Part shown: positions 40,601-61,915 of the stretch, piece after piece
How the letters are laid out: the number at the start of each line of letters is the position of its first letter
Position numbering within the stretch: position 1 is the stretch's first letter
NCBI RefSeq assembly: GCF_020520425.1
Contig: NC_079489.1
Span: forward strand, 14,966,001 to 15,030,000
DNA length: 64,000 bases
Origin: Spinacia oleracea
Taxonomy: Eukaryota > Streptophyta > Magnoliopsida > Caryophyllales > Amaranthaceae
Reading direction: 5' to 3'
The notes under the pieces: generated by a model
Seen by the model: the letters and a program-made list of their open reading frames with translations, nothing else
Databases searched by the model: none
Told to the model about the DNA's origin: nothing
Translations under genes and position numbers: made by a program

Positions 40601-43229
40601 AAGTCGGTCAACAAGGTCCTGAGTGAGTTAGATGTCATTGTACTGGAGGAGGATGAAACAGACAATGTGCAACACACAGTGGAACAACCATTGGGAGGTG
40701 AAGAAAATGTGTTTGTGAATTACCAGTCCTTGCCTGTGGAGCAGCCCGTGTTTGAGTTTCTGCATGTTCCAGCAGTGGTGGCCGTGCAGAATGAGCCTAT
40801 GGAGGAGGCAGAGCAAGTGCAGCAGGCCCCCCCACAACAAGTGGTTGAGCTAGTGCAGCACTAGGAGGCCATGCAGAATGAGCCTATGGAGGCACTGCCG
40901 CAACACGAGCCACAACAAGAGCCACGTCATGAGCCTGTCCAGCAAGGTCATACCGAGGGAGACCAAGGCGGACCACAAGAAGAAGGGCCAGTGGTGCCTG
41001 TTGTGCAGCAAGAGGCAGACCCCCAGGGCCCAGTAGAAGAGCCACCACAACATGATTTTGTGGAGCCACAAAATGATGTTTTGGAGGACCCCGAAAACGA
41101 AGATGAAGAAGATGAAGAGGAAGGTGATGAAGAAGATGGCGAGGAAGGTGATGAAGAAGATGGCGAGGAAGATAATGAAGAAGATGGCGAGGAAGGTGAT
41201 GAAGAAGATGGCGAGGAAGGTGATGAAGAAGATGGCGAGGAAGATAATGAAGAAGATGGCGAGGAAGGTGACGAAGATGAAGAAGATGTTGGTAATACCG
41301 CGGATCAAGATAAACCTGGTGATGATGATGATGATGAGAACCAAGGAGCAAATGGTGGTACAACGGGTCCGGTTGCTGGTGAAGCTGAAGGTGCAGATAA
41401 TGCAGAGGGTCCGGGTGCCGATGGGACCGAGAATACAAGGGGTGGGGGTGAAGGTTTGGACCATGGTGCTGTTCATGGTTCCAATCCTGAAGATTTTGAT
41501 GGTGCTGAACCAGGTGGTGATGGTCAGGTGAGAACAAGAATAAAGGCAGCGAGGCCTAAACCTAGTCCCAAACCCCGCACTGCGACAAAGAGATCCCGTA
41601 AGCCTAGTGAGAAGGCAATAGCAATGAGAACAGCTCGTCAACGACTAGGTATTAGAATGACGAAGGCAGACAGTTCTATTTTGAAGTACGTAGAGGCTTA
41701 CGACACCAAAAAGAAAGCAGGGTATGTTCGATTCTCTAAAAGATGATAATTACCCCACTGTTTGTTGAAATCTACTAAATCGTTGTTGTTTTGCAGAGGG
41801 GCTATGTTGATTGAATGTGATGGGAACGACGCAAACCAGCAGATGTGTTACTCGGTTGTTCACCCCAGGTCCTATGTGAATTCCCAGTATGTTCGTACAA
41901 TTGCATATCTCTACAACCGGGAGTGGGCTAGTGAATTTCCAAAGAGTTGTCGCAGACTTATGCTTGACTCTATGTTTGCAGTGAGTACTAAAACTAGGTC
42001 TTTAATATACGTTATGTTTGATCCAGTTTATTGAATGCTAAATCCTATGTTGGCAGCATCAAAAGCTAAAGACGAAAGAAACATATGCTGGGTTGTTCAA
42101 GAAGTGGTCGCAACCACTTAGGAAGGTGGTCTCCTCGGATATTTCTGTGGTATTACCATCTTATACTATTCATCCCTCATTATTAGATATTTTGTATGTT
42201 CGCAATAGTTGACTCATGTTGACTTAACACATGATCGCTAACCAAAACATCATCATGCATGTGACTATTATCCATATTCATTGGTACCAAACGTTCACAT
42301 GGCATGTGATTGGGACCCATTGTCTTTAGGTTTGATACAAACAGTTGATGGTGTTGTTCCGTATTGGTACCAAAAGTCGTTAGGAATTGGTATATTGAAT
42401 ACCAAACATTAAATTGTGTACCTGTTTTGTTAGTCCATATCTCATCACCTATGTGTCATTGTTATTACTGAATGAAGACAGGTTTAAGAGATATTAGACT
42501 TTGTAAATTACAGGTTTTTGTTCCAGTTGTCGAAAACGAACACTGGTGGTGTGTTGCTTTTGCACTCAAAGACCAGAAGATATGGTTCATTGACAGCATG
42601 TATAAAAATCCCGCTGCAGAGCATTCTGCGGAATTAAAGAAATTGGTATACGGACTAGAGATTTGTAGTCCTTACTAATTTTTGCGGTGGTAAACATTAT
42701 TGAATAATGTTTTTAGCTTCATTTAACCAGTTTTTTAAATTCCAGATACCTGCCGTTGACTACGTCTTACTGGAGACTGACAAGGAGTTTAACGCATCCC
42801 CGGCATGGCAGACTAAGCAAATGGGGAAATGGCCCCTGGATGTTGTTGGTTTTCCTGATTATAATGACAAGTATATGGCCGTTGATATTCCCTTAGTTTA
42901 TTTTCCCTCAGTTGTGTACATTTAATATATAATTAACTATGCTATTCCTCCTACACAGTCATGCATGCGGGGTTGTGATGCTTATGGCGATCCGGGAGAC
43001 TGCTAATGCTTTCAAAAAGTCAATGCATGTGGTAAGTGTTATGTTAATCAAATTTGTTGATTGGAACATAACGTTATGTTAAAATACACTTAGCATGCTG
43101 GTTATTTACTTTCCATGGCAGGGGGAGATAGGCGCTGCCCGGAAGGCTCTGTTCTTGTCCCATTTGAATTCAGACTACAACTCTTGCCGTCCATTGATAC
43201 CGGAGATAATTGCTACCCATTGCCGTTGA
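37610..43229 (+). CDS. Ulp1/C48-type cysteine protease gene, TE-associated, 13 exons
   Basis: Ulp1 (C48) proteases cleave SUMO-type tags; plant MULEs often carry relatives of unknown substrate. By eye the exons are 37610-37651, 37805-38572, 38667-38759, 38852-39535, 39641-39778, 39882-39959, 40388-41721, 41797-41980, 42057-42149, 42514-42645, 42746-42870, 42959-43031 and 43122-43229. All phases agree, giving about 1283 codons. Residues 15-270 are acidic with KKRRR-type patches. 302-601 is a globular region (LPITPGHWEDVFGL) like the domain preceding Ulp1 in such genes. 602-1060 is Gln/Pro- then Glu/Asp-rich. 1139-1283 is the protease: His in NEHWWCVAF (1148), Asp in IWFIDS (1165), Cys in HACGVVML (1227). 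The usual Gln of the oxyanion hole is not obvious. A TAG at 40862-40864 interrupts exon 7 (codon 760), so a full protein needs readthrough, splicing around it, or an assembly error. Confidence 0.8.
41112..41285 (+). repeat. Coding minisatellite (24-base unit, 72-base higher order)
   Basis: Seven 24-base units encode GDEEDGEE or DNEEDGEE in the order GD, GD, DN, GD, GD, DN, GD, so every third unit is the variant. It lies in exon 7 of the Ulp1-like gene. The complementary strand also stays open here, which makes spurious long ORFs. Confidence 0.9.
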
Positions 43230-45013
43230 TTTATAATAGTCTAGTGTCATGAACTTATGTTTATTTTAGTTCGAGTGTTTAATCATCAACTTTGTTTATC
43301 GGTTGCGTATGAACTATACCGTGCTTTTGTTGTTTGGTGACCAATACTTCCCTTACACTATGCATTTTGGTTAAAGGGGATGGAATACTTTGTAGTTTTG
43401 GCACCAATATATGTGTGTAATATTTTAACGACATTGTTCTATATTGCAATGTCGTCAAGTTCTACAAGTTGATCCCTTTAAATGTTGGTTTAGTCAAATT
43501 TCTTATGATTTGTTACCCCCAACACTCGCTGGTGTTGATCCCTTTTACATTTGTGTTTTTAGTTCGTGTACTACAAGTTGTGTTCATTTCAAAATTCTTA
43601 TGATTTGGTGTGAAAATGTGTTATTAGCCTGGTACCCAATGTCATATAGGTTTGGTACAATATTAACTTTTATAGCTGTGGTACCCAAAGTCATATATGT
43701 ATAGTTGGTACCCAATGCGTGCACTTGAAATAAAACGACATAAAAAACACATATAACGCGCGTGTTTAACAAAAGAACGTTTATCTTGAACAAAAGAACA
43801 ATACCCTAGAACAAAAGAATATTAAACGCTCTAGTCTTCTCATCTCTGTTTTTTGCGTTATTTATTCGATTTGCTTTCTTCTTGCGATATATATTTTTCA
43901 ACATCAAATTAAATCGATTATCTTCTTCTGCAAATAATGTTTTGATGAATTTGATTTTGTAATAATCGTGTGTTTGATGATTTAGTTTTTGTAATAATCG
44001 AGTTTTGGTGTTTTTGATGATTTTAATGAATCAAATTATGTAACAACACGTTGATTTCATTGAAATCGCTGATTGATTTTGAAGAATTTGATTATGTAAA
44101 TACGATTTTTTTCATAAAAGGACTGTTTTACCTCTATATGCTCGTATTACAAGAAAAGTTTCTTTATGGTAGAAAAATAGACCATTTTCGTTTCATAATT
44201 TGTTCTTTCATTATATTGTTTTCTTATTTTTTATTATTTTCAATTTCATTTGTGTTTCATAACTTGTTGTTTTTATGTTATTGTGTTATTTTTCTTCTTA
44301 CTTTTTATTTATCCTTTGTTCTCTTGGTTGCGTTCTTTTTATTATTATCAATTTCATTTGTGTTTCTTAACTTGTTGTTTTTATGTTATTGTGTTATTTT
44401 TCTTCTTACTTTTTATTTATCCTTTGTTCTCTTGGTTGCGTTCTTTTTATTATTATCAATGTTATTGTTGAATAAGGTACTTGTCTTGTTCTTTTAGTCT
44501 CTCCATTTGTTCTTTTAGTCTTTTGGCATCCTTGATTTGAGTTAATCTTTAGTTATACGTTGGATGCATTGTAACGTTGGATCCAAAATAACTGTAATTA
44601 TATGTAAACTCCTTTAAGTGTATAATAACTGTAATGATATCCAAATAACTGTAAGTTAATCCAAATAACTGTATGTATTTACAAAAATATTTAACTGAAA
44701 TATGTAACTGTATTTACAAAAATATTTAACTGAAATATGTAACTGTATTTTTTTAATTTCCGATTTTTTAATTAGTCGTTCATGTAATAGGGTTATCGTA
44801 TGACGTTCATTCAATCACCATAATATATTAAAATATTTAAAATTTAAACTTTAAACAACATAATTCACATCTAAACAACAGATAAACTTTAAACTTAAAC
44901 TTAAACTTTAAATCACATAAATCACATAACATAAAAAAACAGATAAACTCCTTAAACAACAGATAACAACGTATTGTTGAATAAGCATCTTCCCTCCTTA
45001 AACAACATATTCA
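43230..45013. other. Intergenic, with tandem duplications
   Basis: 44241-44456 is a near-exact tandem duplication of 108 bases (CAATTTCATTTGTGTTT anchor). 44660-44750 holds two to three copies of GTAACTGTATTTACAAAAAT. Open frames in this T-rich DNA are compositional. No gene was recognised. Confidence 0.6.
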
Positions 45014-45533
45014 GGTTCTTCCTTGCGGGTGTGGTGGTGGGGAAGGTGTCTCATCTCCTCTCCTTCGTTTTTTTTCATTCACTTGAGGAGGAGTTCTCGG
45101 TCTTATGTTCACATCAGCTTCAAGTTCAGCCACAACCTCATCGATCTCCTCAGCATCAGGTTCAACATCAGCTTCAAGTACGTCCTCGATCTCCTGAGCG
45201 ACGTTCACTACAGCAACATCCTCGATCGCCTCTTCGACGTTCACTGCACCAACTTCCGGAACAACACCTAGGGGAACATCTGGAATTGGTAAATTGGCAT
45301 CCAATTCCTGATCACCAGCAACACCTAGGGGAACATCTAGAATTGCTAAATCGGCATCCAATTCAGCGTGTAGGTGGAGCAACGGGTCGGGGTGTTCCTC
45401 ATGAATGCCCTCAGCTTCAAACACTTGCCAATAATGCTCGAGAAGTTCTTCGAAAGTAAGGACGTCCTCTAGTGGAGTGTGTGGAGGAGTGGGAATTGGG
45501 GTACCTCCCGAGCTTGAAGACGAAGAAGCCATG
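45014..45533 (-). CDS. Small acidic orphan protein
   Basis: It starts at the ATG at 45533 (MASSSSSSGG), giving about 172 residues. A Ser-rich N-terminus and TPIPTPPHTPLEDVLTFEEL lead to a tandemly repeated DVPLGV segment (ELDADLAILDVPLGV and ELDANLPIPDVPLGV). A Val/Glu/Ala/Asp-rich acidic stretch follows, with a basic cluster KKRRR near the C-terminus that could be a nuclear signal. I do not recognise the family. It is the first of three minus-strand genes lying between the Ulp1-like gene and the endonuclease-like genes. Confidence 0.45.
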
Positions 45534-46294
45534 GTGGTTGAAGAGGAGAAAATGTGGTTACACAAAGGTGTTTTGGAGGGAAAAATGGGTTTTGGAAAAT
45601 GGTGGTTTAAGTATGGTATTTATAGATACCAAACTCCCTTGATTCGATGGTGTACGTCATACGATAGTAGGGGAGTTAGATGGTCGTTTTGAAAATTTAA
45701 ATTAGTTGGTATACGTTTTGGGTATACGAAATGGTATTGAAAATTGTTACTTTTTTTTAAGAATTGTGCCCTAATTAATATCCAATCACGCCTAGTTAAT
45801 AATTGTGCCCTAATTACTACCCAAACACGCCTAGACAATAATTGCACTGCACTAATGAATAAGCCTTGCATTGGTACCAGAAATTTAAAATTAATACATA
45901 TTAGAATTAGTTGTACATGTTAAAAATTAATACATATTATAATTAGTTGTACATGTTTAATATTAAAATTAATACATGTTTAATGGAAAAATTAGTGTGC
46001 AATGAAAAGATAAATTTATTATCTAATGTTAATATGATAAATTTATTATCTAATGTTATTATCATAAGACACACTTACAAACATCTCAAACCCTAATTTC
46101 ATAAACAAAGAGACACTAACATACTAGTAATGTGTGCAACATACACTGCGTCACACAATATGACAAATTTGAACATAATATTTACAACTAACACTGGCGT
46201 CACACTAACTTACTATTAATATGTACAACTTATAATGCGTCACACCTTACTTTAGCAAACATACGAAATTGCACTCCCGAAGCAATGTATTGTC

Positions 46295-46765
46295 TCACGG
46301 AGCAAGTGTAGGGGACTTGATACGCTCAATTCCTATATTAAGATCAATCACCCTTTGTTCTGCGTCATCATATTGCTCAATGATTTCTTTCATATGGTCA
46401 TATAGATCTCCATGACCACCAATACGCAGCGCTTGGTGAAGCGATGTGAAGAACTGACGTTGGATGGATTTCAATCGATGTATATGTTCTTTGCAATTTC
46501 GTATCCCATTCTCCATTACCTTGTTCATTTCATCAACGCCTTGTTCCACATCGTCATAGCTCTGTAGCAAATCCTTGAAAAGGGTCTCAGCCCGACTATT
46601 CCCTTCCCACCTCATTCTTATCATTGTTGATTTTATGTGTTCACGCTGATTTTTTTTCGCGTCCTTGATTTGTTGAACCTTTGCATTAATTTCTGCCATG
46701 GCACGTTCTTCCGCCGTGGGTCTACGCGGGACGCTAGACCATCTTGAGTTTGCGGATGATGCCAT
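46295..46765 (-). CDS. Coiled-coil orphan protein, 156 residues
   Basis: The ATG at 46765 (MASSANSR) opens an unbroken frame with no low-complexity bias. The protein is mostly helical: EERAMAEINAKVQQIKDAKK, then AETLFKDLLQSYDDVEQGVD and HMKEIIEQYDDAEQRVIDLN. Two similar helical stretches (SYDDVEQGVDEMN and QYDDAEQRVIDLN) suggest an internal repeat. No known domain is recognised. The MASS..S.R start resembles that of its neighbour at 45533. Confidence 0.55.
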   Translation of the reverse strand: MASSANSRWSSVPRRPTAEERAMAEINAKVQQIKDAKKNQREHIKSTMIRMRWEGNSRAETLFKDLLQSYDDVEQGVDEMNKVMENGIRNCKEHIHRLKSIQRQFFTSLHQALRIGGHGDLYDHMKEIIEQYDDAEQRVIDLNIGIERIKSPTLAP

Positions 46766-46869
46766 TTGATTTTCGTTTTTCTAACAAATGTGTTCTCCTA
46801 AATATGCACTCTTAAAACGTGGCGTAGTCCGACCTATTTATAGAAGACGATCACTGGGTCCGTCCTTAT

Positions 46870-47110
46870 CCAAATAATGTGGAAATAAATAACTACCCTA
46901 ATAATGAAAATAATGAAACTGCCTTTAACTACCAATAATGTGGAAATAAATAACTACCCTTTATTATTATAATAATGAAAATAATGACCCTTTATTATTT
47001 TAATAATGAAAATAATGAAACTGCCTTTAACTACCAATCGGGGGAAATAAATAACTACCCTTTATTATTATAATAATGAAAATAATGAAACTGCCTTTAA
47101 CTACCAACCG
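46870..47110. repeat. ~65-base tandem repeat
   Basis: Three to four imperfect copies built from CTGCCTTTAACTACCAA, GGAAATAAATAACTACCC and ATAATGAAAATAATGAAA. Confidence 0.8.
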
Positions 47111-47400
47111 GCTAGTACTAGACTATGTTACCCTTTCTGTTAAAAAAAATTAGTACTAGAGATTGGAGACTATAACAAAAACAACATAAGGGAAGTTATA
47201 TTTAGTACAAGGTTACCAATACGAATACATAAGGAGTTCTAAACATAAGAAGTTCTAAACATACGAATACAAATCGTCTCTTATGTAACATGAAGTATAA
47301 CATAAGGATTTCTAAGCATAAGAAGAAATAGTACTAGAGACTGGGGACTATTTAATACAACACATATCATTTACGATTCATCGAATGCCGATGATAGTCT

Positions 47401-48315
47401 TTAAATCTCCTCACTAGCGTCGCTGTTCGAACTATCTTCTTCGTCAGCTGAATCCTCCACAACATGCTTCATGTATTCTTCATCGAAGTACCATTTCCCC
47501 GTGTAGCGCATTGCATTTGCCAATGCCATCTGCCTTTCGTAAGACTCAGGATAATTATGTTCAGAGTAAAACGGATTTTCTAGTAACAAATCAAGCTCGC
47601 TCATTGTGTCTAACCCATTAATGTCTATCATTTCGTTCTTAAACTTCAAATACTTACAATCATCGTATTGTAAGTAGTAAAAAAGATCAAACATTCCAAA
47701 ATTAATCCAGTCGAACGTTATTTCCCTTTCAGTGAATCCCATATATTTGCGACCTAGCACCAAAAGTCCAAAATGACCAGACTCTTTTTCATGCACTGCT
47801 AACCTATGTACAACATCATCTAACCAATACTGGATAGGCTTAAAGAGCTCAAAGAACTTCACCAGATAGCGATAGAATAGCTTATTCTCCATGCACTTCA
47901 TTAATATTTTTTTCAGCTTGTGCAAGTTAAAGCTAAATGCCATGTTGTAGGAGTCAACTAAGTAATACAAAAAGCAGTACGCTTCTTTCCTAAAACGTCG
48001 TGCACTGATAATCTTAAGCGGAGTTAAAAAGGGCCATTTAGGGTTAAATAATATACCCCCAATTGCATCATCCCCGTGCCTAGAAACCGCAACAAGTAAG
48101 TGTGGGAAGAATTGACCTTTAGCCCTACTGCGTACCGTGAATATGCCGACAACGTCTTTCACATCCCGCTCACCTGACTCAGCTAAAGTGGCCATTATGT
48201 CGTCAGTGTCTATTGCCTTAGCCTTCCCTTTCTCCCTCGCTGTATAGCGCCTTCCTCTCGGTGTTTGCCCCTCTTCCATACCATTATCTACTTTTTCCTT
48301 TCCTTTCCAAGCCAT
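47401..48315 (-). CDS. Orphan protein, 304 residues
   Basis: The ATG at 48315 (MAWKGKEKVD) starts a long intact frame. Basic residues 1-35 (RGRRYTAREKGKAKAID) precede a region rich in aromatic residues: FLYYLVDSYNMAFSFNLHKL, NKLFYRYLVKFFELF, HFGLLVLGRKYMGF and FGMFDLFYYLQYDD. It ends in an acidic tail (DSADEEDSSNSDASEE). The mix looks like a folded nuclear protein. No family is recognised. It faces away from the endonuclease-like gene at 49395 across a 1-kb divergent spacer. Confidence 0.6.
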   Translation of the reverse strand: MAWKGKEKVDNGMEEGQTPRGRRYTAREKGKAKAIDTDDIMATLAESGERDVKDVVGIFTVRSRAKGQFFPHLLVAVSRHGDDAIGGILFNPKWPFLTPLKIISARRFRKEAYCFLYYLVDSYNMAFSFNLHKLKKILMKCMENKLFYRYLVKFFELFKPIQYWLDDVVHRLAVHEKESGHFGLLVLGRKYMGFTEREITFDWINFGMFDLFYYLQYDDCKYLKFKNEMIDINGLDTMSELDLLLENPFYSEHNYPESYERQMALANAMRYTGKWYFDEEYMKHVVEDSADEEDSSNSDASEEI

Positions 48316-49394
48316 GGCCTACAATGAGTTATATTAAAATCTTAGCTAAATAACAGCGAACGGATTTGTATTAAAATCTTAATTATATATGACAACGTAC
48401 ACTACCAGACCCCTCATAACATACTTGTACCGAACCCAAACTCTATACGTACCAGACCTCACATAACTTACATGTACCAAACTCTACATGTACCAGACCT
48501 CACATAACTTACATGTACCAAACTCTATATATACCAGACCTCACATAACTTACATGTACCAGACTCTTTGCGTAATGTATTTACTTTTAGTACCAAACGA
48601 CATATTTAAGCGGGGAAACACTTTTGGGTATAATAGTGTGTGTATGGTGTATGAGTACACAATTATACATTTGAGATTTTTGAATTATTACTTGTAAAAA
48701 AAAAAAAAAATAGTCCGAAAACAAATATGTGTAACCCAAAACAACAGACAAATTAAATTAAAATGCATAATTTGATACATGGTGATCTATCAAAAGTTGG
48801 AACCATGAACGAACAACATTAAAGTTAATGTTCACGTTTAATCTCCACCTTTGACAATAAGGTAAGCTGTGAATAGTAGATATTTAAACAATTACAGTAG
48901 ATAAACTTGGATTACCTGGACGTTGTATGTCCCCTATTGAGTGACCTCTTATGCCGTATGAAAAGGTTTGAAATGTTTGTGTTTTGCAGTTAGAAGTTTG
49001 GAGTTCTGGTTTAACTATTTAAAGGAGGATACCTCTTTTAGGGTTTTAGGGTATCCGTATTTGTTTGGTGGGTGTGGTAAATGCAAGTAAATGAAGGGAT
49101 GATAGATGTAGTTATACGAACTAAATGAACTCTCCATATTGGTATGAATGTTGACAGAATGAATGGATAACCCCTTGTACCTTTGTACTTTAAAATGTAT
49201 TTAAAATTTATAGTTCACTTAATGCTTATAAATGCAGAACACCTACTCATAATAATGAAAACCAGCTTATAGTACACTTAACTTGAATTTGATAACAACA
49301 TCACAACCACACAATCTCAGACAAACCAGAAAGTTCAGTTTTGCATAACAAACACTTAGTTTGGTTGTCTGTCTCTTTCCACGTAGAATTGAAG
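48316..49394. promoter_or_regulatory. Divergent intergenic spacer with TACCA-rich repeats
   Basis: 48385-48570 holds three to four copies of a ~42-base unit CTCACATAACTTACATGTACC plus AAACTCTA, that is, alternating TACCAGA and TACCAAA. The remainder probably contains the promoters of the genes at 48315 (minus) and 49395 (plus), but no box is decisive. Confidence 0.5.
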
Positions 49395-50764
49395 ATGAAT
49401 AAAACACCCCATAATAATAATTCTACCACTCCCCACAAGAATAATTCTCCCCACGAGAATGTTCTTAAACAAGTTGTGTCGCATGAAATGTCACCAACAC
49501 GACAAATTCACTTTCATCCCCGTGTTTCAATGTACTTCGCCCCTTCGAAAGGTACGGAACCGGAGATTGATTTAAATAATACAATGTTCTTTAAAACATA
49601 TGACGAATTACTCGAAGATGATGATTACAACCCCATTTCTAACGAATGGGTTAGAGCAGCCATATTTTCAAAAACATGGGACAGGGACGGGTTCCCTGGT
49701 ACGTTCATGTTAAGAGAAGGACCACGGATTGATCCTTACCATTTACCCACCCCAGACGATTCTACAGGGATCATTCACGGTGGTTTGTTGTCGTACATCG
49801 AGTGGGAAGCTTGGCAAGAATTTGATGCCATCCCTGCAAATTATCTTGCGCCTATCGACCCACGTCCGGTTCTTCACATAGATCAGACACCCATATATGC
49901 GGTCCCTATCCGTAAAACTCCGATCTTCATGGGTTCTTATACTGATGCCTTACATGTCATGAGAATTTCAAAGCATCTACAATCTATTGACCTAGATGTG
50001 TTCTACCACGAGGTCAAACGAAGAAGTAGGAGATATCATCAAATACAAGTAAGTGCTACAGACCAGTATTCCGGCCAGCTAACAAAGGCGTTGCTAGTAA
50101 AGGGGTTGGTGGTTGTTATATGGAATGCAAGGGGTGTGACCCGACCCTCGTTTATGATACACTTCAATGAGATATTTCAGAAACTCAACCCAGCCCTGAC
50201 TATAATTACTGAGTCCAGAATTGGTGAAGCCCCCCTGTTGTTGCTTGCCCAAAAATTACCTGGGGCATACCAGCACGATGTGTTTGGTCCAACCGGCCGT
50301 GCGGGCGGTGTTGTGATGTTCTGGAGTGTTAAAGACATTCAACCTTCCATTACCCAACGAATGTTTACCAATTCATGCTTCCCCGACGAAGTGAATCATC
50401 TAGTGGGGTTGAAGTTCCATGTAAGTTTCCTCCAGACCTGTAATACCAAACCTTGTAGGTTATATAACAAATTAGATTTTCAGGTATAATTTAGTAATAC
50501 CAAACCTTGTAGGTTATATAACAAATTAGATTTTCAGGTATAATTTAGTAATACCAAACCTTGTAGGTTATATAACAAATTAGATTTTCAGGTATAATTT
50601 AGTATACCTTGGTCTATAACAAAAAGGGTACCAAATGTAGGTTTCAGATATAGTTTAGTATACCCTTATGTACTTACATAATTATCTGTTTGTATACTTA
50701 TTTAATGTTTCAGGCAGTCATACAAGGATCCCCGTGCAAAGTAAAAAGAAGGCTGTATGAATGA
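49395..50764 (+). CDS. Endonuclease-derived paralog 1 (LINE-EN-like C-terminus)
   Basis: Two exons, 49395-50420 and 50714-50764 (GTAAGT donor, TTTCAG acceptor, phase 0), give 358 residues. The N-terminal two thirds is a domain I do not recognise, shared with the genes at 53061 and 54518: PEIDLNNTMF, IDPRPVLHIDQTPIY and DALHVMRI. From residue 238 it reads VVVIWNARGVTRPSF, LTIITESRIG and AGGVVMFW. This is the start of the endonuclease/exonuclease/phosphatase fold as in plant L1 elements: Asn of WN and Glu of TE are 29 residues apart, as N14 and E43 are in human L1 endonuclease. The second catalytic half (Asp/His motifs) is absent, so nuclease activity is unlikely; binding or a structural role is inferred. 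The last exon adds a basic tail (CKVKRRLYE). Confidence 0.7.
50441..50603 (+). repeat. 54-base triplication in an intron
   Basis: Three near-perfect copies of a 54-base unit (TAATACCAAACCTTGTAGG at 50441, 50495, 50549) lie inside the intron of paralog 1. Each copy carries a TACCAAA heptamer and a TTTTCAG|GTATAATTT sequence that looks like an acceptor/donor pair. Confidence 0.92.
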
Positions 50765-50957
50765 AATCCGGGTTAGTAAACGTTTAGTTTTTTATTTACT
50801 TGCCAATTTAGTGTTTGATGTGCTTCGAATCTCATATGGAGTTTGTATTATAAAGAAATATAAATAATTATAAAGAAATATAAATAGATTCAATTCCAAC
50901 GGAACACGATTTACATAAGTGATTACACAAAGTAATCGGGATATTAAATTCAAATTA

Positions 50958-51320
50958 CCAAAACAACTTTGCAAATACTACAAATAGGCATATTACACAA
51001 ATTCGGAACACTAAATCTAGACGTTTTTCAATTCTAGCTAGGTGATTTTTGACTACATCAAACCCTAATTGTACTAGGGATGAAGGAACCATATCGTCTT
51101 CCTTAATTAAGTTATGGTCATCCACCCACTGAAACCATCCACAGAATCGGCACTTGTAATACAGCTTCATCGGATTTGATGTACTCTGTGAAATGCGGAG
51201 TTCGGTAATACAATTGGTACACGTTGGGCACATTACGGTCTCACACCATAGAATCCGGTGGCCGGCGGTCGCACCAACATTGACGGCAGGAGACGTGTGG
51301 CCAGTCGAACATCTTGACAT
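50958..51320 (-). CDS. GRF-type zinc-finger protein with C-terminal membrane segment
   Basis: 121 residues from the ATG at 51320. C-P-T-C at about 32-35, then LRISQSTSNPMKLYYKCRF and CGWFQWVDD, matches the GRF zinc finger (Cys pair, R.S.T..NP.+.YY.C, CG.F.W.DD). Such fingers bind nucleic acid in Topo III, NEIL3 and many plant TE-linked small proteins. Residues 103-121 (LVFRICVICLFVVFAKLFW) form a hydrophobic anchor. It lies between endonuclease-like paralogs 1 and 2 on the opposite strand. Family known, job unknown. Confidence 0.7.
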
Positions 51321-53060
51321 TATGACAATTGGGTGGAAGGATGGATTTTATTTTTTTTCTTCTGCAACATACTATTCTACAAAATCAAGTTCAAATATAT
51401 AGTGCCAAACGTATGTAGAAGCGTATTCGACACACTTCACTGTAGGGGATATGTTGGGCGGGAATTTTCCTGCTCACCGAATTTGAACTACTTTGAGCTA
51501 AAAATATCAGGGGACTTTATTGTATGGTACAACGTGCCCAACCGATTGGTACCCCAACATCTGAAAACAAATTATTAATATTAGCAACCACTAAAATTGG
51601 TTAAATTCAATAAAAATAAATCCAACAGAACTTAAATGACTATTAATATTAATATTAGCCACCACTAAACCACATACCATAAAACATAATCGTGTATTTG
51701 ATCAAACATGACTACAATGGGTTCGGATTCATATTAGGTCAAATCGTGTATTCGATAACGGGTCATTCGGGAATATGTTGTTTATAAATATTTTAAATTT
51801 CGTATAATCATATTAAAACAAACACCAGGAATGACACGTATCAATTCACGTGTCAAATCCTGATGCGATTTTTTCTATGAATAGAACAAAGTTTAAGATT
51901 ATTATGTTTGGTAATATTTATCATATTAAAAAACATATAAAATATATAAAATATATTTTCCTAATACATATAAAATATATAAAACCATTTTTAATTCCTA
52001 GTATATTTTTAAAACATATAAATCTAGTAAACCATTGTAAAAACATATAAATCTAGTAAGATATATTCCTAAAACCATTGTTAATTCCTTGTATGAATGG
52101 CTAGCCCTAATTTACCATTCTCGAGAGTATATTGTACCAACATGTATACTTATACGTACCAAACACTCAAATACTTGTCCAAATATTTATTTTTACCCAT
52201 ATTATGTATGAATGGATAACCCTATTTTACCATTTGTTCGAATAAAAAGGACCTTTGAGGACCTTTTATAACACAAATTTTGCGAGAAAGGACCTTTTAT
52301 AATTTTTTTTGTGAAAACACACCTTAAGGGACCTAAAAGGAAGTTTTCGGCATTGTCTGAGCTTTCCCGGCGCCCATTGACTTGCACGTGAGCAGCACAC
52401 GTGGCTTACGTTGGCTAAGGACATTGATTTTCCCGAGTCTTGAATTTCATGTTTGATTTTCTTTTGATTTTTTTTTCAACTTTAGGTTTTACAGCTTATA
52501 AATTGTGAATGGCTTACACTACCCTAATTTACCAATCGGAATAATACATTCGCCCAAACGGTTTACTTTAAAGTACCATACACTCAAATCGTTGTCAACA
52601 ACTGAATCACTAAATTCAATTGTTAATTGACTAAATTCAATTGGGGTCGTACCACACAACTAATTAAAAGGTTTAATTAACCCACATTTATAACGAATGT
52701 AGTTGAACATTATTTATATAGGATTTGCTGTATAAGTAGTAAACACTGTTGTACCAATTATGATCAATGAATTAAAAAGGGTACCAAACTAGGGTACCAA
52801 ACTAGTCGTTCAATTGTAATAAAAATGTAAGGGCCAATTTAATACACAACTACCAAAGATGTTAGTAAAAGTAAATGCTAACAACTACCTGCTCAGAACC
52901 CTAAACTGGGACTTCGTATTTATAGGTACAAACTCCCTTTTGAGCATTCTTAACAACATTTAACTTCCAACCCTACCTCTTACAAATATTTTCAACTTCA
53001 GTGAGTAGCCGTAGTTGAGCAGCCGTAGTTATCACTTCATCATTATACCAGATTTTCAGC
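51321..53060. other. Intergenic spacer, no gene recognised
   Basis: AT-rich with several TACCAAA motifs (52157, 52782, 52795) and ATATAAAATATATAAA tracts (51930-52060). A leader of paralog 2 probably lies at about 52920-53060. Confidence 0.4.
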
Positions 53061-54137
53061 ATGAAGAAGATGAAGTCCATTTCTAGTAGAGTTGCCCAAA
53101 ACCAGGTTTCAGGGCCATCTCAAAATTTTATTTTTCACCCAACATCTGTTCTTTACTTCGACCAGCCAAAAGCATCAAACTTACCTGAGGTAGACTATAA
53201 CACCACTAGCTACTACGTCGACCTCGAAGAATTTGAAGCGGAATTCACCGTACCAGAGGCAATAAAGTCAGATTTGGAGTTGCAACTTACAGCGGTGATG
53301 ACAAACACCCCGTACGTACATGATGCTTTCCCGTGTGCAGTGATGGCTACAACCGAAGGAGGACCTGCTCCTTCACACCGTCCTCTAATTACCGACCACC
53401 CCCATTTACATCAGGGGTTTTGGGCCTTCTTAGTATGGTGTTCCAACATTTTAGCAGACGAAATGTCTTGGAAGTTGTTCCCTTCCGAGCTTATTGCAAT
53501 AATCGACCCCAAGCCAGATATTGATGTTCAAGATCTGCCCATTTATAATTTTCCCGACTTCGAAGCTCGGATATGCATTGCATCATACTCAGACGCAATC
53601 CACGTTATGAGGGTGGAACAATTCTTCTCTAGTCTGGTAGTGGGAGTCATGGACAAGAAATTTTCAAAGCCTTCACGGGCGTATGCGGAAATACGCGTAG
53701 AAGGGCAAAAGATGTTCGCCGGAGTCCCCCCAACGATGATCCCACGCGGAATGATTGTGGTTGTGTGGAATGCCAAGTCTATGACAAGGCCTTCTTTCAG
53801 GGAAACATTCTTCTCACTTTTTGCAACCTACCACCCATCCCTCATAGTTGTAACTGAAGCTAGGATCAGCCACAACGACGGTAAGGAACTTATAAATAAC
53901 CTCCCGGGAAAGTACGACAGTACCGTATTCGACAACATTGATCTGTGTGGAGGGGTGGTGCTTATGTGGCGTGTGAATGAGCTTTACGTCTCGTACAAAG
54001 AAGCAGATTTCATGATAGAAGACGCGTTGTTCAACGTCACGTTTGAGGTACTTTTCTTCCCTAACGCTTCTCTTTTCTCGAAGTTGTCAACTTACACCTG
54101 CCAAATACATGTTAGAATGGTGCCAATTTCATGTTAA
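53061..54137 (+). CDS. Endonuclease-derived paralog 2
   Basis: The ATG at 53061 (MKKMKSISSR) opens 358 codons. By comparison with its paralogs the first exon should end at 54047 (TTTGAG|GTACTT; 329 codons); the codons after that read into the intron. Shared blocks are LPEVDYNTTSYY, APSHRPLITDHPHLHQGFWA, IDPKPDIDVQDLPIYNFPDF and DAIHVMRVEQFF. The endonuclease-like end follows: IVVVWNAKSMTRPSF (Asn at about 237), IVVTEARI (Glu 29 residues later) and CGGVVLMW. I could not find the short basic terminal exon seen in the other two genes, so either a different ending or partial loss is possible. It has 28-base-scale identity only in motif blocks with paralog 3, its nearest relative. Confidence 0.65.
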   Translation: MKKMKSISSRVAQNQVSGPSQNFIFHPTSVLYFDQPKASNLPEVDYNTTSYYVDLEEFEAEFTVPEAIKSDLELQLTAVMTNTPYVHDAFPCAVMATTEGGPAPSHRPLITDHPHLHQGFWAFLVWCSNILADEMSWKLFPSELIAIIDPKPDIDVQDLPIYNFPDFEARICIASYSDAIHVMRVEQFFSSLVVGVMDKKFSKPSRAYAEIRVEGQKMFAGVPPTMIPRGMIVVVWNAKSMTRPSFRETFFSLFATYHPSLIVVTEARISHNDGKELINNLPGKYDSTVFDNIDLCGGVVLMWRVNELYVSYKEADFMIEDALFNVTFEVLFFPNASLFSKLSTYTCQIHVRMVPISC

Positions 54138-54517
54138 AAAGGTACCTAACAATTATTACCGAGTACACATTAGTATCAAAAAGTACCATTTTAAAATTGC
54201 AACTGCGTACCATAATACATCAAAATGCATTCTTCTTTAGTACCAAATAACACTAAAGTGTACCACATACTCAGATGATCTTATTTTGTTACAATAAGGT
54301 GTACCAGTTTCATGATCGTCTGTTGTTTAGTACAGTTATGGTGTACCAACGTTACGTCAAATTGAAATTCATAATTACTGGCTTGGGTGGTTGGAAATGG
54401 AAATGAAATAAATGTGCAAGTAAATATGTTCTTTTTAAGGGAGACCCAACCATTTTCAACCACCCTACCGTTCATTTCATCCAAACAAACAGTTCCCCAA
54501 CATTTAATCCTTCCACC

Positions 54518-56040
54518 ATGTTCAGCGCCGTACGAAAACATAAACACTCATCCAAAGGAAAATCTATTACTTCACAGATCGCCAACATTGAAGTGGGTAA
54601 TAATAGCAGGACCACTCTCCTATTGAATCCAAAAAATATTATCTATTTCAAACCCTTATACACTTCTAAGTTGGTTCCAGAAGTAGATTACAATAACACG
54701 TTGTTCTACGTTGACGGCGAAGACTATCATCGTAATGTGTACATACGCGACGCGATCCGATTTGACTTAAGAAACCAGTTGAGGGACAAGCTGTTGAGGA
54801 AGTCTTATGATCGTGAAAGCTTCCAATGCGATTTAATGGCGACGCCAGATGGAGTCGCTTTGCCGCCGCACCGACCCTTAATTGAAGACCAACAAGACCT
54901 ACATCTGGCATTTTGGGCATTCTTGGATTGGACATCAAGGAAGTTAAGAGCATCTGGGTCTACCCAGTTGTACCCAGACATTTTGATCCCAATAGTAGAC
55001 CCCATCCCAGGCATCGACATAGATAATCTACCAATTTATAGCTTCCCCGATTTCAACCGTCACTTGTTCATGTCGTCGGACGCGGACGCAGTACACGTTT
55101 CGAGCATTGACGCCTTTTTCCATTATGTGGAAATCAATGTGACACCAAGATCCTTTTGGAGATGGCCTCGCGAGTATGTCGATATTAGTTTGAAAGGAGA
55201 TACAATTGGCTACGGGGACTACCACCCCTTTTTCCCGAGGGGAACAGTGGTTGTTGTTTGGAACGCCAGATCCATGGCGAGGCCTTCTTTCGAAAAGGGT
55301 TTCAAAAAGCTTTATGAAGCTCATAAACCCTCGCTCCTGGTTATAACACAAGCTAGGATTACTTGGCAACATTGCAAGCAACTTGTTCATCGACTTCCAG
55401 GTAATTATAAATGCAGTGTGTTCCAGAACCTGCGTGACTGTGGTGGGGTGGTAGTTATTTGGAAACTCTGTGAAATTGTCGTTAAGTTCATCGAAGAGAA
55501 CTTAGAACCAATGACCCTGTTTAAACTCATTGCAAAGGTTAGTTCAACCTCTAAATGTCTGTAATTAATTATTAGTTTCGTTGCTTTCTGACTATATTAG
55601 GATATCCTCTTGCATATTAATCAACCAACATTATTAATACAAAATTTGTTTACGTACAACTTCTTAGTTTGACAACCAAATAGTACAGGCCCTGTGTTCA
55701 TTTGGTTCAATCGAATATATTGTTGATAGTTCGAAACGGAACTAGTATAGTCCTTGTGTAAAATTTGGTTACTTACTAGGTACCAACAACGATAGTTTGA
55801 TATCCAAAAAGTATAGTCCCCGTTTAATTATAATATGTAGTTTGAAAAGGAAATAGTATAGTCCTTGGTGTAAAATTTGGTAACCGAATATGTTGTTCCA
55901 AATTTTACAACTGTAGTTTTAATTCTTTTGTTGTTGTGTTCTCACTTTTTATATTTCACTAATAATGTTGGATGATCTATGTTGAGCAGCCAGTCTTCAA
56001 GCCCCGGAAGCAACCCCTTGCGCGTAAGTTGGACCTATAA
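54518..56040 (+). CDS. Endonuclease-derived paralog 3, catalytic Glu replaced
   Basis: Two exons, 54518-55537 and 55990-56040 (AAG|GTTAGT, GAGCAG acceptor, phase 0), give 356 residues. The last exon is again exactly 51 bases and ends basic (KPRKQPLARKLDL). Shared blocks are VPEVDYNNTLFYVD, PPHRPLIEDQQDLHLAFWAF, VDPIPGIDIDNLPIYSFPDF and DAVHVSSIDAFF. The endonuclease-like end is TVVVVWNARSMARPSF, LLVITQARI and CGGVVVIW. The metal-binding Glu position reads Gln here (TQAR against TESR and TEAR in the others), which argues against catalysis. Only 380 bases separate it from paralog 2; the tandem arrangement indicates local duplication. Confidence 0.7.
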
Positions 56041-56813
56041 GGAGGAGACGATGAAAGTCGTGTCAGCAACAACTTTGACACTACTTTAAATAGGTTATTA
56101 ACTAGACTAAGCGAAAATTATTACCAACACAACCAACCACAAATTTTTACCTGTGGGTTCGATTATCTCGGCTTGTATCTCGGCTTAATGTCTAATGTCT
56201 AATGTCCATTTGTCTAATGTCTGTTAGTCTAATGTGTAAACTTTAATATGTATTAGTCTAATGTCTAAACTTTAATATCTCTCGGCTTGTATCTCGGCAT
56301 GTACTACACCTTATGTACTAGGTGCTTTGTGTTGTATCTAAACTACGTTTTATTGTATTAAAGGACAATTATTTGTCAGTGCTAATAGACGAACTCTGAA
56401 TTTAACAAACAACTATTTATTATTGTGTACCAAGCAACTATCTCACGAACTCTAAATTTAACAAATACCTATTTATTATTGTGTGTACCAAACATCTTAT
56501 ACACGAACTCTAAATTACACCGATAGGTTGACAACCAAATAACTATTTATTATTGTGTGTACCAAACATCTTATACACGAACTCTAAATTACACCATCAT
56601 CTAAGAAACTTTTTGTACCAAACACCTTATAGGCAGACACCTTATAGACAGACACTAAATGTAGGCCGAACAACACCTATCTCACGAACTCTAAATTTAA
56701 CAACTAATAAACAATGTTATACAATGTTACATTATTACCAAGTGTTATAAATTAAATATAAATAATCAACAACTTATTACGGACTACAAGTACCCTATCA
56801 AATGAATTACGTA
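56041..56813. repeat. Convergent spacer with ~80-base repeats
   Basis: 56390-56690 has three to four imperfect copies of ACGAACTCTAAATTTAACAA with CTATTTATTATTGTGTGTAC and CAAACATCTT. 56190-56280 repeats TGTCTAATGTC. It separates paralog 3 from the end of the transposase gene. Confidence 0.7.
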
Positions 56814-59800
56814 TTAATTTTTTGACAAGTCGTGGCAACTAAGGAGGTCTTTGGTGAAAATTGGGTTGCGTGAAACATTGTCTTGGTAAACCTGAGTGCT
56901 AGTATTTCCTACAAAGCACTGATTACCTTGAAACACATTATTGCTTGTGTGTTGGTAATTTGGATTATCTATGTGTCCTTGTAACGTATGATTTCCATGG
57001 ACTTGATAATTCTGGTTTACGCCCGGCATGCACTGATTTCCAGAACCTTGGAAAGTTCCAGCAACATTACTGGTAAAATACCGTAGGGAGCCTGCGTTCT
57101 GCGATACTTGCAAGGCATTCAAGTTTTGCGGCATTTGAGGTAATGGACGCACGCATTGGATTTGTGACATTTGAACTCCGCCTTGGTTTTGAGAAATTTG
57201 GGACAGTTGCACACCACTCATGTTCTGTGACAAAACCATCTGACATGGATCTTGAGAGAGCATTACATCCTCTTGGGACATACGAATCCCCCCCACTGAC
57301 ATGCGGATTTGTTGTTGTTCCACTGGAAACAAATTTGTAGCAACGCCTCCACAAACTCTACCGGATGGCTGCTGCTACATGTCACAGAATCAGTTTACAC
57401 CAAAACAGACTACACACAAAAGAAAATTCATATTAACATTACAATTCACCTGTAAGTTTTGAAGGGGAGCACCATTCATGAAATTGTGTTGCGGATATAA
57501 AATATGCCCACCAGGTTCCCGACCGTTCTGAACTCCTACGAGTTGTTGCAATTCACCTCCATTCCCGCGAAGCTGACCATGCATACCCTGAAACCATAAA
57601 CCACAACAAACATTATACTCTGTACACACTCCACAATGTTGACAAATTTATAACAGAATTGGATGAGGATAAATCAGCTCACAATTTGGTTGGACCCCCA
57701 TCGAGGATGGTAGTTGTTCTGTATACAACCTTGATTATTTTGGCCTGGTATGTTGGTATTCGCTAGACTCGGTCCAGGAACTTCTTCCGCAACAACGTCC
57801 TTATTTTTCCGTACTTGCTTTCTAGCAGGCTTTTTGATCTCACCGGCAGCAAGGAATCGTTTCTCACGAGTCCTGTGGGCCTTCACACCACCACGTGGAA
57901 CAGGATCCTTAACAACCACAGGTGGGGATAGAGATGGTGTATCCTCCCCGTAACTGTTGGGAGGTTTGTTAACAGACCCAGGAGTTAGAGGAGCATCGCT
58001 GCTCTTTCTGTTGCCAACAGAAGCAGCACCACCGCCTTCGTTATCGCCCACTGCTGATGTAAGTACATCGCTCTCATCCAAACGTAGCACAGTTTTCTGA
58101 ATCATCTCAATAACAATGTCCATTTTTTGCTCTGCGAGGGAACCACGCAGAGCAACCGGTTCTATGGCATTCATAATTTTGTCGTATCTCTTAACTTCCT
58201 CAGTCTTCTCTGGATCATGATACGCAACCTTGACAAGGGTGTGCTTACGTTGGATATCTTTCCTCCAACGATCAACAATATAAGCGGCAGGTACTGTTTC
58301 CACATTCTCCACGTCCAGTACCTTGATTATATGTCGGCACACTATGCCATGGCACTCAAAGTGTTTGCAATCACACTTCGCAACTGACGTTTCTTTGTTG
58401 AAGAGTACAACATATGTACGCTTTCTACCAGACAAGGATATTTCCTTCTTCAGAAACTTGGACCACACCCACACTTTGTCTGATAAAAGGTGTTCCACCT
58501 CCACGTCAGAAATCAGTTTCGAACTTATGGGGGAAACATAGCATACGCGCATGCACTGTAGCTGAACTTCAACAAACTTCGCGTCCGTGTATATCTTCTG
58601 AAACTTTCTTTCCACAGCAAACTCACCCACTAACGGTCTACTGAAACGACTACAGTTCACATCCGCAGCTCTTTCATCATTCGCCCTACTTTCCATTGCC
58701 TTGCAATATCTTGGAGCAAACTGATACAACCTCGTGTTCTTCTTCAAGTAGCCGTCGAAAAAACTATTTATGCTCTCCACCCTTTGAGTAGTCTGCATAC
58801 CTGCCCAAAATATATGTTTCACATAAGCCGGTATCCACATTTCTCTCTGGTTGTACAAACCTGCCAGGGATCCAAAATGTAAGAGACAAACTCTGCATTT
58901 TCATAAATCACAATTTGAAGTACCAACTTCTTATATATATAAGGGAGTACAACAAAAATATGTACCAAACAACACAAATAACGGAGTTTGGTACATCTAC
59001 TTAGCACATGAAATTCAAAATTTTGGAAATTAACATACCTTCAAGCCACTTATAGCATTTCTTTGTCTCCTCCTTTGTGTCGAGTTTAAATGTTTTGATA
59101 GCAACCGCCCATTGCTCCTCAAACTCAACAGGAGTTAAACTATTGTATATGGCATTCTGTAACGCAACTTTTATTTGGGGAAAATCATTCAACGACCCTA
59201 GTTTCCGGCTAAACTTCTGCATTATGTGCCACATGCACCAGCGATGTCGAGTTTGTGGCATTGGCATTGCTATCCGAATCGCCTTCCTCATTGCAGCATC
59301 TTGGTCAGTCATCATTGCTGCTGGCGCTTTTCCCCCCATACAGGACAACCACGACCGAAACAACCACACAAATGTCTCTGCATCTTCGTGGGATAATAAA
59401 GCACATCCTAATAATATGGTCTGCCCATGGTGATTTACCCCAACAAAGTTCGAAAACGGCAACTCATACTTATTTGTGAGGTAGGTCGAGTCAAAGCAAA
59501 CCACATCCCCAAAATACTTATACGCTTCTCTACTACGAGCGTCAACCCACATAACGTCCCTCAACTTCCCTGATTTATCTACGCGGTGCAGATGGAAAAA
59601 ATTTTGGTTGTCCTTGGTCATTCTATCTAAATAGTTTATCATTGCCGCAGCATCTCCGTCTCTAAGCCTCAATCGCATCCTCTTATTCAAAATATTATGC
59701 ATATCTTTTTTGGTAAACCCAATATTCTCAACCCCGTTCCGTCTACCAGCTAAGTTGTTGAAAATCTGTGTAATTGGCGCCCCTGAATCATGATCATTTA

Positions 59801-61274
59801 CAATCTGATTTAAAATTGTATCAGTAATTTTCTTCACCCTATACATCGATATATGATTAGACTTTGTAGGTGTTGGATTGTGATTCACGTGTTCGTTTAC
59901 AACACTCTTCACCACCCAACTATTATCCTGCTCACGAGCACCATACAACATAGCAGGGCAATTACACTTTTTGGACTTCTTCTTCACAAGTGGATCCAAG
60001 GCCATACTCACTTTTTTCCCATTGACCATGCGCCTGTAAGTGGTTCTTCCGTAACACTCGCACCTCCACACATAAGTTTTTAGGGAATTTGATTTCCCAT
60101 TTTCTTGTTTTAATTTGGGACAACTTCTTCCCCCTACACAGACTACACCAAATCCTTGTTGTTCCCCATACAAACGGTAATAGTTATTCATACCTTCCCA
60201 ACTAGGAAATGACATTCCAACTACAGGGCTGGCTAATGCAGGGCCTTCTCTCCTCCTTGTAGGGGTTGTATACACTCCAGAAATATTTCCTTTCAATCCA
60301 CTACCTTGTCCTACATCATTACCCACACCTTCTCCTACTAATGAGTCATTTTCTTCTCCATCAACATCATTTTCAGCTTGATTTTCAGCATCAACATCAT
60401 TATCCTCTTTAAGGTCATCGTCATTACCCATGAAAACTTCCTCATTCAAATCTTCTCCCACATCCAGTTCCTCATCATAATCATCCCCACTATCATAATC
60501 ATAAGATTCATAACCACATTCATCTTCAGCGTCTTCTTCATCCACATTTCTGTATCCATTACCATTTTCATCGGCTAAATCTTCACCACTTTCATCGGCT
60601 AAATCATCACCACTTTCATCAACACCTTCACCACTTTCATCAGCTAAATCATCCCCACTTTCATCAACACCTTCATCACTAGATATATCACATTGTTCAC
60701 CCAACACTTGGAATGTCATTTCATCCAGTTCACTATCATCAGCCTTGGGGAACATGGAAGTTTAAGTTACCAACAGCACATCAAAATAATCTAATACCAA
60801 ATTCACATTGTTCACCCAATACAAACACTATACCAAATTGCAATATTCATAAAATTGATATGATTAAACAATACCAAATAAGTTAGATCATATTAATTTT
60901 CCTATACCAACTTACACTTTTTAATCAAGTTTGGTTTTACTTGGTACAAACACTGAAAATAATTTCCATCAAATTTAGAGCGTATAAATGTCATCATTAT
61001 TATATATTAGTTATCAATTCATTTACTCGTACACCAACGAAATGATTTTAATTAATGTTTCAACTATGTATGTACTAATTATCCCTAATAATACACATTT
61101 ACAGTTGCCCCAACCCTAAACCCTATTATTGATTAGTAATAACAATAATTAACAAGAAAGAACTGATGTAATATCTGTTGTGTATGGAAACATAAATATA
61201 ATTAATTTGTTCATCCATACCTGATTATCTAGCTGTAATCTTCTCCTTCCGCCGCCCACAGCGTCTTTCGCCAT
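56814..61274 (-). CDS. FAR1/FRS-like Mutator (MULE) transposase, five exons, open frame
   Basis: MULE transposases cut and join element ends in the nucleus; FHY3/FAR1 are domesticated relatives. By eye the exons are 61274-61221 (MAKDAVGGGRRRLQLDNQ), 60743-59039, 58860-57683, 57587-57450 and 57371-56814. All junctions keep frame, giving about 1210 residues without a stop. After a long Asp/Glu-rich N-terminus with DESGDDLADESGE repeats come: a FAR1-type DNA-binding domain (about 195-290, FPSWEGMNNYYRLYGEQQGF); a MULE transposase core (about 400-560, VVCFDSTYLTNKY, MMTDQDAAM, RHRWCMWHIMQKF); and a SWIM zinc finger (about 750, CDCKHFECHGIVCRH). A basic NLS-like region (KKPARKQVRKNKD) and a Gln/Asn/Met-rich tail with repeated MSQ/LSQ follow. 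D..D/E core residues are present, so activity is conceivable. It is the obvious candidate motor for a surrounding element. Confidence 0.88.
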
Positions 61275-61915
61275 TGATAACACAGAGTTCACTCACAGAA
61301 CGGTTATCGATAGATTTATTGAATTCGAGGAGACTAAATCAAGAGTTCCTCCATCGATTGTTTTGGGATTTTTTTGTGACAAACCCTCATCACGAATCTA
61401 AGGGAATTTGAGAAATTTGAGTTCCAGAAATGGTTGATTGTATCAGATTGATGAAGAAGAAGAATATGTGGATTACAATTCACCTTGTTTTTGCCGCCAA
61501 ACAATTGGACTGGAATTTTGGCGCTTTGGACGAAATTTTACTTCTCTCACTAACTTTGAGTTAGCGCCAGGTAATATCATGGTTTCCTTTTTTTTTTCTG
61601 TTGTTTTTGCCCCACTTTAAAGTTTATTATTATTATATTCTTGGTATAGTTTTTAAAGCCTCTAGTAGGTATAGTCCAAGACTTTCTCGTCTCCGATCCG
61701 TATATGATATGCTGTCTGTTTCATCTTCAGTTTCATCTTTACATAGCATGAAGGGAGCTGCAACAAGGTTCATAATTTTGGTTAGGTGACAATAATACAA
61801 TCAACTAAGATCTACCTTAATTTTTGGTTAAGGGCATCGTTAATGATCTACCTTAATTTTGGTTAAGGCCCTCGTTAATGATCTATCTTAATTTTTACTT
61901 TCCAATAATATAATA
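61275..61915. other. Upstream region of the transposase gene
   Basis: It probably contains the transposase promoter and leader. The segment near 61497-61590 has GC-containing blocks (TTTTGCCGCCAAAC, TTTTGGCGC, GTTAGCGCCAGG) that could be sub-terminal element sequence. I found no inverted partner near 32 or 36 kb. Confidence 0.35.

Follow-up and report, generated by a model that had tools for sequence, protein, structure and literature searches.

Three tandem genes with a predicted half-EEP fold lie inside a 25.3-kb Ulp1-carrying Mutator-like element of Spinacia oleracea

Three related genes with first exons open from 49395, 53061 and 54518, on the + strand of a 64-kb window (the window being the whole stretch of DNA that was analysed), are located inside a Mutator-like element (MULE) of 25.3 kb. 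We put at about even the chance that these genes encode non-catalytic, probably DNA-associated accessory proteins of this Ulp1-carrying MULE. The analysis covers a single copy of the element within that one window. The ends of the element and its contents other than genes 1 to 3 are as follows.

36378..36386, no strand: left target-site duplication, 9 bp, GTCTCCGAT
36387..61688, no strand: Mutator-like element, 25,302 bp, the best 9-mer-flanked inverted pair of the window
36387..36435, + strand: left terminal inverted repeat, 49 bp
37610..43230, + strand: Ulp1-protease-type gene made up of many exons, which like its limits were read by eye
45011..45619, - strand: open reading frame (ORF), 202 aa, no family above cut-off
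46295..46780, - strand: ORF, 161 aa, no family above cut-off
47401..48318, - strand: ORF, 305 aa, no family found
48403..48574, no strand: upstream of gene 1, a tandem array containing TACCAAAC sites
50440..50608, no strand: 54-bp repeat, 3.1 copies, with ATACCAAAC, in the gene 1 intron
50955..51347, - strand: ORF in the gap between genes 1 and 2, GRF-like zinc ribbon
56385..56595, no strand: repeat with TGTGTACCAAAC, downstream of gene 3
56814..61274, - strand: MULE transposase gene of FAR1 type, in several exons joined by eye
61640..61688, - strand: right terminal inverted repeat, 49 bp
61689..61697, no strand: right target-site duplication, 9 bp, GTCTCCGAT

The element boundaries were located by scanning for inverted repeats flanked by exact 9-mer direct repeats. 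The terminal repeats of the best pair start with GAG and are degenerate, with 37 of 49 positions identical in inverted orientation and the pairing running from 36394-36435 to 61640-61681. The next best real 9-mer-flanked pair reached 28/49, and 20 local mononucleotide shuffles, which keep base composition only, reached 26-29/49. The flanking 9-mer GTCTCCGAT occurs twice in the window (+ strand), in identical copies at the two element ends. Target-site duplications of MULEs span 8-11 bp according to the available part of PMC6446971, and some groups lack terminal inverted repeats. Because the grapevine CACTA elements include a family of 21-25 kb (PMC2528002, available part), the 25.3-kb size alone is not new for a plant DNA transposon. 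No tRNA gene was found in the window, and a search of a plasmid collection gave no match. The original prediction, which dealt with the three genes, had overlooked their setting in a MULE.

The transposase matches PF10551 (MULE; E 8.5e-32, 110 bits against a cut-off of 27.6), PF03101 (FAR1; E 2.4e-7) and PF04434 (SWIM; E 1.2e-4), the latter two also above cut-off. An N-terminal FAR1 domain, a SWIM zinc finger and a MULE core are likewise found in Jittery and the FAR1-type MULEs (group 36 of PMC6446971), whereas the table of that paper, in the part available, gives one ORF for that group and the present element has many. The same table rows assign FAR1 to Jittery and to certain other groups but leave VANDAL without it. 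The Ulp1-type gene matches Peptidase_C48 (PF02902; E 4.6e-10, 40.1 bits against a cut-off of 20.7) over exons at about 41799-43230, as read by eye. An in-frame stop is encountered at 40862-40864 when reading continues without a break through the exon that starts at 40388; this stretch may be spliced out, or the stop may be a sign of a broken gene. The 350-aa upstream part of the Ulp1-type gene, as assembled from by-eye exons, matched no Pfam family at E up to 1, DUF1985 included. The GRF-like ORF matches PF06839 below cut-off (E 0.0023, 18.4 bits against 25.9).

In the available parts of the papers describing them (PMC5735166, PMC10398659, PMC13317346, PMC6446971), VANDAL and Hiun elements with VANC, and KIU elements with a Ulp1-carrying VANC, share with this element a 9-bp target-site duplication and short or degenerate terminal inverted repeats, as well as extra genes beside the transposase, the Ulp1-type gene being as in KIU. 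The present element differs from them: it is 25.3 kb long, its transposase has a FAR1 domain, and beyond the three genes with half of an EEP (endonuclease/exonuclease/phosphatase) fold it carries the GRF-like ORF and three ORFs more. The description that suits it best is that of a large MULE, FAR1-type and Ulp1-carrying, whose anatomy resembles that of anti-silencing elements. We stop short of calling it a VANDAL, given the lack of a DUF1985 match and of a tree that places its transposase.

The exons of the three genes are listed below.

49395..50420, + strand: gene 1, exon 1, 342 aa, comprising the N-terminal region, bridging strands and EEP half
50714..50764, + strand: gene 1, exon 2, 16 aa, basic tail; donor GTAAGT, acceptor TTTCAG
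53061..54047, + strand: gene 2, exon 1, 329 aa, taken to end at donor GTACTT
54518..55537, + strand: gene 3, exon 1, 340 aa, with Gln in place of the catalytic Glu
55990..56040, + strand: gene 3, exon 2, 16 aa, basic tail; donor GTTAGT, acceptor TTGAGCAG

By tblastn within the window, genes 2 and 3 are 41% identical, genes 1 and 2 29%, and genes 1 and 3 28% (E about 1e-79 to 2e-34), which rules out chance similarity; no fourth copy was detected in the window at E up to 0.05. The first exons span 329-342 codons, compared with longest frames of 134, 163 and 192 codons in 300 shuffles of each. The original prediction of three related genes at these positions, sharing several named sequence blocks, is borne out on both counts. 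It had also assigned all three a common intron position. This is the case for genes 1 and 3, where a phase-0 intron is followed by a 51-nt exon encoding 16 residues with a basic tail; no second exon of gene 2 was found downstream, and its intron is only presumed.

Judged from their codon positions, genes 1 to 3 are under purifying selection. Over the 318-328 codons compared per pair, positions 1/2/3 differ at 0.42/0.34/0.64 between genes 2 and 3, 0.53/0.43/0.69 between genes 2 and 1, and 0.56/0.48/0.77 between genes 3 and 1, so that third positions are the most variable throughout (0.64-0.77, against 0.34-0.48 at second positions). Neutral decay of the gene family is ruled out by this pattern (chi-square p 4e-10 to 2e-14, computed from the rounded fractions), and the earlier suggestion of selection on intact frames agrees with it. 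A dN/dS comparison among the paralogues had been proposed as a check; dS is saturated (2.43 for genes 2 and 3, undefined for the other two pairs, with dN 0.57-0.92), which makes the ratio no more than a rough guide. Among the three parts of the protein, amino-acid identity is highest in the EEP half in 3/3 pairs.

The C-terminal part of these proteins is predicted to be the first half of an EEP fold, with modest fold statistics. Structure prediction, another check proposed with the original prediction, was applied to residues 135-329 of gene 2 (AlphaFold; pLDDT 72.9, pTM 0.76). Model residues 97-195 (gene 2 residues 231-329) align to residues 1-119 of DNase I at 2.5-2.8 A over 96-97 residues, and model residues 95-195 to residues 6-103 of human LINE-1 ORF2p at 2.8 A over 90. 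EEP proteins account for 44 of the 50 structural matches listed, going by family labels that in part we presume, and the Foldseek probability reached 0.95, with APE1. Methyltransferase, dioxygenase and ribosome matches were set aside as common arrangements; among viral structures no match was found at E <= 0.001, the best row being unrelated. Sequence profiles gave matches below cut-off. The sole NCBIfam match of gene 2 was to the EEP family NF003842, in register (E 0.007-0.008; found in 2 of 11 family members), and the sole Pfam match of the C-terminal 109 aa of gene 1 was to PF03372, also in register (E 0.051). Four hhalign comparisons, against E. coli XthA (with 7 relatives), YbhP and YafD, were all weak, one of them out of register. 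The N-terminal region had been taken for a single uncharacterised domain of about 235 residues. A shared N-terminal region is indeed present; it is not one block, since residues ~160-217 (about five strands) fold together with the EEP half in the model and residue ~235 marks no domain border there.

As in EEP nucleases such as APE1, DNase I, TDP2 and the LINE endonucleases, the first half of the fold carries the WN and T-E motifs, and the spacing of 29 between the WN-Asn and the T[E/Q] motif, as claimed for Asn to Glu, is found in 3/3 genes. The WN-Asn is retained in all three; the Glu is Gln in gene 3. Unlike those nucleases, genes 1 to 3 have extra strands upstream and lack the second half with its catalytic residues: nothing of it (GDxN and SDH motifs) was found after the GGVV..W strand in the three genes or their downstream exons, just as originally stated. 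Because this half is missing, an active site of the type seen in EEP enzymes cannot be assembled, and the three proteins are probably not nucleases. Selection combined with the absent second half makes the non-catalytic role first proposed a probable one, and a half-nuclease fold may have stayed under selection after losing its catalytic half. Crc of Pseudomonas is a regulator with an EEP fold and no nuclease activity, and the structural matches include 4f1r and 8bvm, which we take to be Crc. Crc keeps the whole fold, whereas the present proteins have half of it.

The original prediction derived this half from a truncated LINE-type endonuclease. Its EEP-like character is retained here, on structure prediction and weak sequence matches; a LINE donor is not singled out, because Nocturnin, TDP2, DNase I, APE1 and LINE endonucleases all fall in the same middling range of structural matches. 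A LINE origin of the half is possible. Downstream of gene 3, where a LINE ORF2 would carry its reverse transcriptase, the window holds no + strand ORF of at least 150 aa. The one LINE ORF that came to light in the window is a reverse transcriptase at 6678-7988. Its position is outside the element, and inspection by eye of the three frames upstream of it showed no endonuclease. Antagonism of LINEs, a role suggested earlier, was set aside, as nothing was found in its favour and the LINE ORF noted here is outside the element. A DNA transposon carrying an EEP-type domain has a parallel in helentrons with an AP endonuclease domain; they belong to another transposon class and their domain is part of the RepHel protein (PMC6431247, available part). 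No report of a MULE with EEP-half genes was found among the titles and abstract openings of the open-licence literature.

Eight homologous proteins were retrieved from public records (P0004-P0011), and comparisons with them were made at the protein level. P0004, P0007 and P0008 between them supply a near-identical copy of each of the three window genes; the remaining five records are 53-70% identical to gene 2 or 3. A Val occupies the position of the window-gene donor GT in 9/9 proteins that reach the site (the three of the window and 6 of the 8 records, amounting to six distinct proteins), P0005 and P0006 ending short of it and standing outside this count. Beyond the Val, the sequences of the window genes and their homologues diverge. 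From this shared Val and the divergence that follows it, the short architecture looks older than the split of the gene family.

These homologues bear on two other explanations. The genes could be passengers, that is, captured host genes or pieces of a single EEP gene carried as in Pack-MULEs, with no role in the life cycle of the element and with selection that acted earlier or in the host. Fragments of host genes are common cargo of MULEs (PMC6446971, PMC13317346, available parts), and in genes 1 and 3 the cut coincides with an intron, which is what captured first host exons might be expected to show. We nevertheless consider a passenger origin rather unlikely: the three paralogues are all open despite saturated synonymous sites (dS 2.43 for genes 2 and 3), members at 53-70% identity in other records have the same Val in 3/3 that reach the donor (P0009-P0011), and decay is the usual fate of captured sequence as described in the available part of PMC13317346. 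Alternatively, an enzyme might have been rebuilt as a permuted EEP site, the D-x-N (45-47) and D-x-x-H-V (178-182) of gene 2 replacing the missing acidic and histidine residues. This is highly improbable, as P0010 has H and P0011 has N in place of the D of D-x-x-H, P0010 also has Asn for the Asp of D-x-N, and gene 3 has Gln for the Glu. The whole-domain structural matches that would suit such an enzyme are explicable by the internal symmetry of EEP folds, which can yield matches of this kind.

A short motif recurs in the noncoding DNA of the element. It was noticed first by eye and counted, and a k-mer scan, leaving aside low-complexity words and counts under 5, came after. GTACCAAAC tops the 9-mers of the element's noncoding DNA, with 12 copies on the + strand, 2 on the - strand and none in the 38.7 kb outside. 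The shorter GTACCAA has 31 noncoding sites and 1 coding site in the element and 3 sites in the 38.7 kb outside, while 200 dinucleotide shuffles of the noncoding part gave a mean of 2.8 and a maximum of 8. Around genes 1 to 3 (48400-56700), GTACCAA is on the + strand 16 times and on the - strand 2 times. A promoter or splice signal following the gene strand is not supported (19 sites in the same orientation, 13 in the opposite one). Eight of 21 TACCAAAC sites are in tandem arrays, three of the 8 in the gene 1 intron; for GTACCAA the figure is 6 of 31, in arrays making up 1881 of 12234 noncoding bases, so that a concentration of the motif in arrays is uncertain. ACTATACCAAG is present in both terminal repeats, which makes a transposase-binding role of the motif possible.

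MULEs of the VANDAL type come with sequence-specific anti-silencing factors of their own (PMC5735166, PMC10398659, PMC13317346, PMC6446971, available parts). VANC21 acts on a short motif that is mainly noncoding, in one orientation, often in tandem repeats and also in introns (Hosaka et al. 2017, PMC5735166, available part), and the Ulp1-carrying VANC genes (KIU) recognise motifs in the noncoding DNA of their own family (PMC13317346, available part). The present motif is likewise short and noncoding, mostly in one orientation over a block, and partly in tandem repeats and introns. It differs in sequence (GTACCAAAC here, YAGTATTAY or AGTTGTCC/AGTTGTAC there, in the parts available), and GTACCAA is not clearly concentrated in tandem arrays. 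By this analogy, precedent favours the Ulp1-type protein as the putative reader of the motif.

Anti-silencing could then be the work of the Ulp1-type gene alone, the half-EEP proteins being other helpers, for example MURB- or VANB-like ones. This alternative is possible though doubtful. It has the KIU genes as a model and an Ulp1-type gene in the element, and extra MULE genes have a precedent in mudrB and vanB, one apparently needed for integration and the other of unknown role (PMC6446971, available part). Against it stand the in-frame stop in the Ulp1-type gene if the exon is read straight on, the lack of a DUF1985 match in its upstream part (by-eye exons, E up to 1), and the one-orientation motif block that surrounds genes 1 to 3. 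A more specific role, in which the half-EEP proteins would be catalytically dead, diverging readers of the element's own GTACCAAAC sites that shield it from silencing, is in our view quite unlikely.

On the reading that we prefer, accessory proteins of a Ulp1-carrying MULE, genes 1 to 3 are tandem, diverging extra genes of a 25.3-kb element that has a FAR1-type transposase of its own and an Ulp1-type gene resembling the ones in KIU/VANDAL elements. Their proteins start with some 150 residues that match no known fold. A compact predicted domain follows, in which about five strands (residues ~160-217) join the first EEP half; in genes 1 and 3 the second exon adds a short basic tail. The proteins would most likely be nuclear and DNA-associated and may serve the element either in transposition or by holding its noncoding DNA free of silencing.

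The role of extra MULE genes such as vanB is described as unknown in the available parts of the literature (PMC5735166, PMC6446971). The spinach element offers a concrete motif and, in its Ulp1-type gene, a candidate reader suggested by precedent; genes 1 to 3, whose half-nuclease fold is recognisable, are three new candidates besides. If the half-EEP proteins did prove to be readers, they would be a second kind of transposon-encoded sequence-specific anti-silencer, with a fold unrelated to VANC.

The Ulp1-type gene (37610-43230) of the Mutator-like element (MULE) is a possible counterpart of VANC/KIU, the anti-silencing genes of VANDAL-type MULEs. The gene carries long acidic repeats, and its in-frame stop (40862-40864) falls within a repeated stretch. 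Three further ORFs, none of which matched a family above the profile-score cut-off, are additional extra genes of the MULE:

45011-45619, minus strand, element ORF
46295-46780, minus strand, element ORF
47401-48318, minus strand, element ORF

Between half-EEP genes 1 and 2, on the strand opposite to both, lies a small ORF whose C-terminal stretch is hydrophobic. It is listed with two features located outside the element:

50955-51347, minus strand, GRF-like zinc ribbon (domain match below cut-off)
6678-7988, minus strand, LINE-type reverse-transcriptase ORF (PF00078, E 2.9e-35)
24154-25246, tandem array of a 66-bp unit (~14-16 copies)

Both terminal repeats of the element (36387-36435 and 61640-61688) contain ACTATACCAAG, which closely resembles the internal motif GTACCAA; the two perhaps represent a binding site in common.
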